Shown in pieces: positions 47,334 to 49,622 of a DNA stretch of 64,000 nt. The DNA comes from Acidobacteriota bacterium. Its GTDB lineage: Bacteria > Acidobacteriota > Holophagae > Holophagales > Holophagaceae. The translations under genes and the position numbers were made by a program. The notes below the pieces were generated by a model that saw nothing but the letters and a program-made list of their open reading frames with translations, was not told the DNA's origin and ran no database searches. Numbering within the stretch: the stretch's first letter is position 1; each line of letters begins with the position of its first letter. Where the stretch lies: NCBI GenBank assembly GCA_021794095.1, contig JAJYRN010000004.1, forward strand, positions 124,001 to 188,000, given 5' to 3'.

Positions 47334-47906
47334 ATGGCAGCACGGCCCGAACAGCCCCCGAAGAAACCGAAGCAGAAGCGGCAGACGCCCGAAGAGCGCC
47401 GCGAGGCCCTCCGGTACAACCACATGATGTACGGCCCCACCGCGGGCGAGCGGCGACCGGCCGCCAAGCGGATGCTCCACGGCACCGCCTACCTCGAACA
47501 TCCCAAGTTCCAACAGCTGATGGCCGCCTTCAAGCAGGGCGCCGCCGCCAAATTCGAGGTCACCGACAAGGGGCGGACCTTCACGATCTCGACCCAGGAT
47601 GCGCAGATCAGCTTCGATGGCAAGGTGGTCTTCTACGCCCGCCCCGTGAACCGCTACGAATCCAACCTCCTCCTGGACCGCGCCGCCGCCGTCTCCTGCC
47701 AGGCCATCAGCGCCTTCGCGCACCTGGTGTTCGCGGTCTTCCGCAGCCTGCCGGAGATCGAGCCCCCAGCTTTGTCCTACCTTCAGAACCAGTTCTACCT
47801 CGCCGGGGAAACCCTGGATGTGGGTATCGCCGAACAGGGCCCGAACCTGCTGCTGGGCTCGTTTCGGACCGCCACCGCCAAGCCGCTGGACCGCCCCCGG
47901 ACCTAG
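47334..47906 (+). CDS. Conserved-looking hypothetical protein
   Basis: 190 residues from ATG 47334 with AGGAG at 47323-47327. A basic, Pro/Lys-rich N terminus (KKPKQKRQTPEERREA) is followed by an alpha/beta region with no motif I recognise. No membrane segment or signal peptide. It probably formed an operon with the original SprT-like gene, whose likely GTG start lies 5 bp after its stop (47912). Function unknown. Confidence 0.7.
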   Translation: MAARPEQPPKKPKQKRQTPEERREALRYNHMMYGPTAGERRPAAKRMLHGTAYLEHPKFQQLMAAFKQGAAAKFEVTDKGRTFTISTQDAQISFDGKVVFYARPVNRYESNLLLDRAAAVSCQAISAFAHLVFAVFRSLPEIEPPALSYLQNQFYLAGETLDVGIAEQGPNLLLGSFRTATAKPLDRPRT

Positions 47907-47911
47907 CCCGC

Positions 47912-47991
47912 GTGAGCCAGGAAGCCCCTCGCCCACCCCAGGATGGAAACCGGCCCGTCACCCTCCGCCAGCGGGCCCAGGCCATCCTCTC
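47912..47991 (+). pseudogene. Orphaned 5' end of the SprT-like gene
   Basis: A GTG 5 bp after the previous stop opens a frame whose codons 16-26 read VTLRQRAQAIL, the same as residues 3-13 of the SprT-like protein at 49227, from an identical 32-bp DNA segment in the same frame. After the repeat the frame runs into unrelated sequence and ends at 48205. Best read as the original start of that gene, separated from its body by a 1.28-kb insertion. Confidence 0.55.
47958..47989 (+). repeat. 32-bp direct repeat, left copy
   Basis: Exact copy of 49234-49265. Both copies lie at the start of a SprT-like coding sequence and bracket the methyltransferase gene, like the duplicated target of an insertion or a product of illegitimate recombination. 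Confidence 0.9.
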
Positions 47992-48110
47992 CAGTCTGGC
48001 ATTCCTTGTGGCTTCCATCGAATATCAGCTGTCGAAGCAGCCGAACCGACAGTCGTCCCCTCCCGACACCGTGGACGTGGCATGGAGGGGACGACCTTTG
48101 TCCAGGTGGA

Positions 48111-48875
48111 TCAGGGTTTCTGGAGAACGTAGAAGACGTAACCATAGCTGGACCCCGTTCGACGGTAGAGGTCCATCTCGGCCTTTTGACCCTCGATCAG
48201 GCTGACCATACTTTCATCGGTTTCAAACGGCTGGAACTGTGCTGCCACCAAGTTGTAGTAGTCCCACCAGTCCCGGCTGGGAAGCCTGAAGTGGCCGAGC
48301 ACCTTCCAACCGGCCTCCTGGGCTACCTGGAGGTTCTCGGCTTCGGTCCCCATGGTCGGATACCACTCAGCCCAGGCGCGTCTGGCTTCCTCCGGTGGGT
48401 CGGTGTCGAACCACGTGGCATCTGTGAGGGCCATCACGCCACCGGAGCAGAGGAGGCCCTGCCAGATGCGGAGCCCCTCCGCCCACCCCAGATGGGTCAC
48501 GGCCCCTTCAGACCAGATGAGGTCGAGGCTCTCCGGGGTCAAACCGGGGTTCGCCATGTCACCAGGACAAGGCTTCACCAGATGAAGCAGCCCACGGGTT
48601 CGGGCTGATTCCCACAGGTCATCCAAGGCAGTTCCATCGGCATCCAGGGCCAGCACGGGCACCTGTAGTCTGCGGGCGAGCAGCAAGGTCGAAGCCCCGG
48701 AGCCGCAGCCGAAGTCAGCCACACGGGGTTGGGCAGGGAGCGGACACAGGGACAGGGCGCGGAGCGTCGAAGCTTCGCTGCCGGGGCCTTTGCGCGACAG
48801 GCCCTTGAACAGGCGCAACAGGGGTTCCCAGGCAGCCATGAATGGCTGGGTGGGAAAGGGGGGATGCAGCTTCAT
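48111..48875 (-). CDS. SAM-dependent methyltransferase
   Basis: 254 residues from ATG 48875 with GGAG upstream (TTG 48887 is an alternative). Class I Rossmann methyltransferase: motif I VADFGCGSGAST, motif II acidic end in LALDADG, motif III-like LDLIWSEGAVTHLG; the aromatic-rich C terminus may form the acceptor pocket. Substrate unknown. It lies antisense within a segment bracketed by exact 32-bp direct repeats, so it was probably inserted here as a unit. Confidence 0.85.
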   Translation of the reverse strand: MKLHPPFPTQPFMAAWEPLLRLFKGLSRKGPGSEASTLRALSLCPLPAQPRVADFGCGSGASTLLLARRLQVPVLALDADGTALDDLWESARTRGLLHLVKPCPGDMANPGLTPESLDLIWSEGAVTHLGWAEGLRIWQGLLCSGGVMALTDATWFDTDPPEEARRAWAEWYPTMGTEAENLQVAQEAGWKVLGHFRLPSRDWWDYYNLVAAQFQPFETDESMVSLIEGQKAEMDLYRRTGSSYGYVFYVLQKP

Positions 48876-49226
48876 TGGAATCTCCAAAGGAACATATCAA
48901 AGCAAGGGCCCACCGGGCCCAAGGTAGGAGGTCAGTCATCCGCTTCGCTCACGAAGCGGCCGGCACCGGCTCCTTGCTGACAATGTTCTTCGAAGACATC
49001 CAGACTCCGAGGTCAGATTAGCCAAAAGATCCATGCAAGTGAAGGAACCTAGGCGCAGGATCCTGTTCTGCGAAATCCCGAAGCCTGCGAGGGAGCCGGC
49101 CCTCTCGGTGAGGTCAACATGGGGGCCCCGCCCCTGCCCTCGATGACAGATTCGATTCCATGCTCAACTGCTGACCCACGGCCCGGCCATGACCCAACCG
49201 GATCTGGATTCCGCCAAAATGGCTGA
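48876..49226. other. Noncoding part of the inserted segment
   Basis: 351 bp between the methyltransferase start and the SprT-like gene. No gene is seen. It contains GGGCCC twice around ACC (48906-48920), a perfect 8-bp hairpin CCGCTTCG/CGAAGCGG with loop CTCA (48940-48959), and CCGG-rich sequence. Composition is a little less GC-rich than the flanks. The methyltransferase promoter must lie here, but none is convincing. Confidence 0.55.
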
Positions 49227-49622
49227 ATGATCATCACCCTCCGCCAGCGGGCCCAGGCCATCCTCGACGCAGTGAACTGGAAGATCCCGGCGCCGCCGGT
49301 GGTGTGGTCGCCACGGATGGCGCGGTGCGCGGGGCTCTTCGTGATCGAGAAGGATTTCCGGGGCAAGTGGCACCCGGAGATCCGCCTCAGCATCCCCCTG
49401 CTCCGCCGCCGGGACTGGCCCTGGCCCCAGCCGGTCTGCGGCATGCGCTGCCACGACCCCGAACAGGTGCAGCGCCGCATCCTCGAGCACGAACTCATCC
49501 ACTACAAGCTCTGGATGGACCGGGAGCGGGACTGGGGCCACACCGAACGCTTCCGGCGCCTGGCCCTGGAGGCCTTCGGGCACCAGAGCATCACCCACGG
49601 CATCGGTACGGAAGGGGAATGA
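49227..49622 (+). CDS. SprT-like zinc metalloprotease-fold protein
   Basis: 131 residues. HELIH at residues 88-92 with a third His in DWGHTERF (H105) is the SprT/HExxH zinc pattern, followed by a helix of the kind seen in SprT-like proteins. The start is odd: ATG 49227 lies just before a 32-bp segment identical to one at 47958, and no SD is seen, so the current start was probably improvised after an insertion cut off the original 5' end. Function in bacteria unknown; eukaryotic relatives (Spartan) act on DNA-protein crosslinks. Confidence 0.75.
   Translation: MIITLRQRAQAILDAVNWKIPAPPVVWSPRMARCAGLFVIEKDFRGKWHPEIRLSIPLLRRRDWPWPQPVCGMRCHDPEQVQRRILEHELIHYKLWMDRERDWGHTERFRRLALEAFGHQSITHGIGTEGE
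49234..49265 (+). repeat. 32-bp direct repeat, right copy
   Basis: Identical to 47958-47989; 1276 bp apart. Forms codons 3-13 of the SprT-like gene. Confidence 0.9.

Follow-up and report, generated by a model that had tools for sequence, protein, structure and literature searches.

A probable relic of a site-specific genomic island in the SprT-like gene of a Geothrix genome

The window analyzed here is a stretch of 64,000 nucleotides from contig JAJYRN010000004.1 of assembly GCA_021794095.1 (positions 124,001 to 188,000, forward strand). Its genome belongs to Geothrix, and the relatives of the locus under study were found in Geothrix and the Holophagaceae. At this locus a truncated and an intact copy of a SprT-like gene (sprT) flank an antisense methyltransferase gene, and the following features were assigned.

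47334..47906, + strand: upstream gene (UP), 190 aa, which natively adjoins sprT on its left side in many Geothrix genomes
47912..47989, + strand: truncated native sprT N-terminus with a GTG start; homology stops at codon 13; includes the left repeat
47990..48051, no strand: left junction, a presumed deletion scar
48052..48095, no strand: strong inverted repeat, a terminator-like hairpin at the 3' end of the methyltransferase gene (z = -3.7)
48111..48872, - strand: methyltransferase (MT), antisense cargo, 253 aa, class-I SAM-dependent (PF13649/PF08241)
49132..49229, + strand: island right end (RE), from nhmmer (E = 8e-18) and pattern search
49227..49622, + strand: intact SprT-like gene, 131 aa (PF10263, E = 3.4e-10)

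The segments 47958-47989 and 49234-49265 are identical across 32 bp in direct orientation. They are the sole two matches in the window at up to three mismatches, with none in 100 shuffles, and translate to VTLRQRAQAIL on the left and ITLRQRAQAIL on the right. An earlier interpretation made from the letters alone, hereafter the sequence-only reading, had described them as exact repeats in frame with the sprT N-terminus, and their identity and uniqueness bear this out. It was equally right about the natural start of the left copy, which is in frame with the GTG at 47912, right behind the UP stop at 47906. The right repeat corresponds to codons 3-13 of the intact gene, whose ATG lies at 49227. 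UP gave no Pfam match; it adjoins sprT in L033, L006, L009 and other loci.

The 1.24 kb between the repeats holds, as had been noted, an antisense methyltransferase, and neither a transposase nor another recombinase was found in the insert. The suggestion that further copies of this unit might be sought elsewhere led nowhere in the window's own genome, where a genome-wide search returned a single copy. MT is not an exclusive marker of the islands, since four genomes have it on other contigs as well. The first 53 bp behind the left copy (47990-48042) matched none of the fetched loci, and sequence resembling that of genome G028 begins at 48043. No match to an integrase remnant was obtained in 47990-48051. 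The hairpin at 48052-48095 is conserved in G028, where it lies between an integrase remnant and MT.

Uninterrupted genes were present in relatives, as the sequence-only reading had anticipated for an insertion. In G. rubra (L033) the site is empty, with about 27 nt between the UP stop and the sprT ATG. The loci L062 and L042 carry an uninterrupted sprT with an in-frame GTG right behind the UP stop, as in the left copy of the window, and in L034 sprT directly follows an NHL-repeat gene. From these empty sites it follows that the left copy represents the native N-terminus and that the stretch separating it from the right copy was inserted.

Many Geothrix genomes have a repeat of the sprT 3' tail (beginning ACCCACGGCATCGG) about 120 bp downstream, around a strong GC-rich palindrome (GGGGCCCCGCTCC..CAGGCTCCCCCGGAGCCTG). 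Such units were seen at L033:5367-5517, L036:5367-5523 and L046:2223-2374 and also in L032, L034, L037, L045 and L053; in L036 the unit starts a second repeat. The unit resembles a REP-type palindromic element linked to the tail of sprT. It is absent from the window.

The right end of the insertion is a conserved element of about 100 bp that runs into the ATG of intact sprT. A nhmmer profile built from ten other sequences, with the window left out, hit 49132-49229 in the window (E = 8e-18); at E <= 2e-5, it placed RE ahead of the intact sprT of 11 genomes. In the window, RE contains a motif beginning TGACAGATTCGATT at 49144-49167. A pattern search of 41 genomes found RE only before sprT copies; by inspection and with the profile, it was also found right after the gene of a tyrosine recombinase (INT) at another gene, mfd. 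Because RE sits either before sprT copies or right after INT at mfd, it is interpreted as an island end and not merely as the sprT promoter. The right-hand ATG had been called improvised, a description that does not hold: the same start position and upstream region of about 100 bp recur at island-bearing sprT genes of other species. We presume that 49132-49229 includes the promoter region and the ATG given to sprT; a scan with the sigma-70 consensus found no promoter. Likewise, the 5' part of the intact gene is presumably island-supplied and its 3' part resident. Codons 14-95 of this gene diverge from those of close relatives no more than codons 96-131, so the comparison gave no sign that the 5' part is of foreign origin.

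Several Geothrix genomes contain partial sprT copies, spanning codons 1-95 or so, besides the intact gene. The islands of G. limicola (27 kb, between G061:C8:46766 and 73975), G. terrae (about 12.4 kb) and G. oryzisoli (4.8 kb) share one layout, with a truncated sprT (codons 1-95/97) and a left end (LE) on the left and RE with intact sprT on the right. Wherever the left end in sprT is preserved, the truncated copy stops after codon 95-97, right behind a HELIHYK motif, and is followed by the conserved LE. LE and RE share GACAG-type repeats. The TGACAG motif resembles TnsB-type sites, a likeness that was set aside in view of the tyrosine recombinase. In G. fermentans, pieces of the island lie at contig ends and contigs begin or end inside sprT copies, as would be expected of tandem islands. 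The duplicated stretch ranges from 32 to about 285 bp across genomes.

In G. limicola and G. terrae, the left and right sprT copies are divergent over most of codons 1-85, and the final 24-40 bp or so up to the junction are identical; the two G. oryzisoli copies match along their whole length. Judged from these alignments, divergence of the copies together with identity near the junction is the signature expected when an integrase recombines the resident sprT with a 5' sprT segment brought by the island. The pattern in G. limicola and G. terrae thus fits site-specific recombination between two alleles, not target-site duplication. At an unrelated locus, G007:C3:491055 (L114), LE was seen carrying some 36 bp of the sprT core (CGCATCCTCGAGCACGAGCTGATCCACTACAA); this is likely a secondary integration site and helps to delimit the att core. 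In the window, the att ends do not lie at one conserved core: the left copy ends at codon 13, and the profile search found no LE. The stretch 47912..47989 is presumed to be what remains of the attL-side sprT fragment.

The G. limicola island carries, upstream of RE and sprT, genes for a VapE-like helicase (PF05272), a 534-aa protein and INT, which matches PF00589 (E = 4e-18) and has the HxxR and RHS..Y motifs. INT and VapE also lie upstream of RE and sprT in G. fermentans. INT homologues with 80-82% identity are found at the corresponding position in G. fermentans and G016, and so is a 93% identical INT fragment in G068. Remnants of INT occur in G007 and G028, and a C-terminal remnant in G. 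oryzisoli. No full INT was found between the ends of the 12-kb G. terrae and 4.8-kb G. oryzisoli islands. In the window's own genome no INT of the island subfamily was found, the best match being 31%. In G063 and G027, an INT of the same subfamily (70-71%) was found with the same RE at the 3' end of a gene that we take to be mfd from its translated sequence. The G063 island has a duplicated mfd 3' end: a 368-bp copy stands before LE and shares 95% identity with the intact gene to the right.

Integrases of this subfamily (64-72%) were also observed in another genus of the family (L170 in G090, L171 in G092), and RE was not detected in these integrase loci. At G031:C43:528-1877 (L156/L166), an integrase remnant (88%) adjoins a 68% identical MT gene; the relative orientation of the two is unlike that in the window and in G028. 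Viral contigs yielded no relative of sprT or INT, and phage records only distant integrases, with 20-30% identity among the matches listed.

The closest counterpart of the window in content is G028, in which the stretch of MT, RE and sprT aligns at 81% over 1593 bp. There, a decayed INT lies directly to the left of MT, whose protein is 88% identical to that of the window and occupies the same place. Shortened left copies were seen in further genomes: the copy is cut near codon 18 in G027, where RE is present and the cargo differs from that of the window, and at codon 56 in G016. Genome G067 holds an island of about 1.27 kb with one gene and no INT, which has LE (E = 3e-11), a faint RE and intact sprT. 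These three genomes form a decay series and support a deletion in the window.

The cargo of related islands includes matches to models of defence genes, namely a Drt8 reverse transcriptase (E = 2e-157), an ApeA-type HEPN protein / PDC-S58, a HEC-04 ATPase (E = 3e-222) and a PDC-S06 ATPase. The defence-type genes are located at L127:9348-10907, L127:15978-17498, L128:7781-9277 and L088:8322-10592. Giant Rhs/YD-repeat or Ig/Kelch-repeat proteins were observed toward the left end of most intact islands, antisense to sprT (a 3246-aa ORF in L093, 1807 aa in L092, 1547 aa in L088 and 1749 aa in L127).

The locus is very probably what decay has left of a genomic island that integrated site-specifically, with sprT as its attachment site. 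A truncated native 5' fragment lies on one side and the intact re-formed gene on the other, and the target receives its start codon and the region ahead of it from the island end matched by the RE profile. Against a relic speak the lack of LE and INT in the window, a left copy that reaches codon 13 rather than 95, the unmatched 53 bp at 47990-48042, and an intact gene whose 5' part shows no foreign signature. The proposal of the sequence-only reading, insertion with target duplication, survives as to the insertion. Its transposon-type duplication is contradicted by the intact relatives, which duplicate about 285 bp (codons 1-95), have defined ends and in several cases carry a tyrosine recombinase. 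A foreign-looking unit between direct repeats could have been left by a transposon that has since lost its transposase, and we regard this as extremely improbable, given borders without terminal inverted repeats, a duplicated length that varies between genomes, a right copy with a complete gene start behind upstream sequence specific to the island, and the tyrosine recombinase of related units. A single Campbell-type crossover, by which host homologous recombination would have integrated circular DNA bearing a sprT 5' fragment and no dedicated integrase, might be invoked for duplicated fragments as long as those of sprT (285 bp) and mfd (368 bp), and for G. oryzisoli copies that are identical over the full duplicated length. 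It is very unlikely in view of a sprT junction always at codon 95-97 where LE is present, conserved ends with shared GACAG-type repeats, the proximity to RE, in intact islands, of an INT from a single subfamily, and the recurrence of the same ends at other genes in G063 and at G007:C3:491055.

More weight, although we still consider it rather unlikely, attaches to a small non-autonomous cassette of one or two kb (LE, cargo, RE and sprT 5' segment) that was moved in trans by an INT encoded elsewhere, entered sprT as one unit, and later lost no more than LE and part of the left copy. The G067 island, which keeps LE and intact sprT around its one gene, and the G. terrae and G. oryzisoli islands without a full INT between their ends speak for such cassettes. 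The INT remnant beside the same cargo in G028 nevertheless favours shrinkage of a larger island, and the C-terminal remnant in G. oryzisoli points to loss of INT after integration. A broader idea that we hold with considerable doubt is that one Geothrix island family switches targets by swapping the fragment it carries (sprT 5' or mfd 3') while keeping its ends and related integrases; INT-less single-gene units like those of G067 and the window would then be trans-mobilised mini-cassettes that repeatedly load sprT with defence- or toxin-like cargo.

As a decayed island, the window copy would have originated from an element with INT and a VapE-like helicase/primase, seated in sprT at codon 95-97 as seen in related genomes. 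The island's own sprT codons 1-95 behind RE would have re-formed a complete gene on the right, an arrangement also seen in those genomes, leaving the native sprT 5' fragment stranded on the left beside LE. A later deletion between codon 13 and the hairpin may then have taken LE, INT, other genes and most of the stranded fragment, so that 13 native codons, one cargo gene (MT) and RE with the replacement sprT start would remain. Expression of sprT would now start from island-derived sequence, uncoupled from UP. The relic would be unable to move by itself and, because no INT of the subfamily was found in its genome, is presumably fixed. For a stranded copy under no selection to match exactly over 32 bp, the insertion must be recent or the match preserved by chance. 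Since the window copy is without INT, and intact relatives in sprT encode one, it is classed as a relic and not as a functional member.

By itself, the window copy is an ordinary relic. Its relatives mark sprT as an integration hotspot in Geothrix, the appearance of the island ends is now defined, and the islands explain partial sprT copies and contig breaks in several assemblies. Since intact islands carry a Drt8-type reverse transcriptase and other defence-type genes, alongside Rhs/Kelch giants, the hotspot is a place to seek new phage-defence genes.

No report of sprT as an integration target was found in the literature searched, which largely left out subscription journals. The mode of integration is that of dusA islands, in which a tyrosine integrase inserts in the 5' part of a conserved gene, strands the original 5' end and supplies new 5' coding sequence with a promoter; other genes are also hit (Farrugia et al. 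2015, PMC4482086; IMEVchUSA3, PMC8409611). Whereas those islands target dusA in Proteobacteria, the Geothrix islands target sprT at codon 95 or the mfd 3' end in Acidobacteriota and so fall outside the dusA family; they have a VapE-like helicase module, and the window copy appears to have lost its integrase. The mode likewise matches that of prfC-targeting islands such as the SXT/R391 ICE; SXT is conjugative, whereas no conjugation genes were recognised among the Geothrix island genes examined. In tDNA-type islands, according to the Islander paper (PMC4383910), the regenerated target and the displaced fragment mark the island ends, and to that extent the sprT islands resemble them. In the window, unlike in tDNA-type islands, it is the 5' end of a protein gene that is restored, and erosion would have left the displaced fragment with an exact match of 32 bp.
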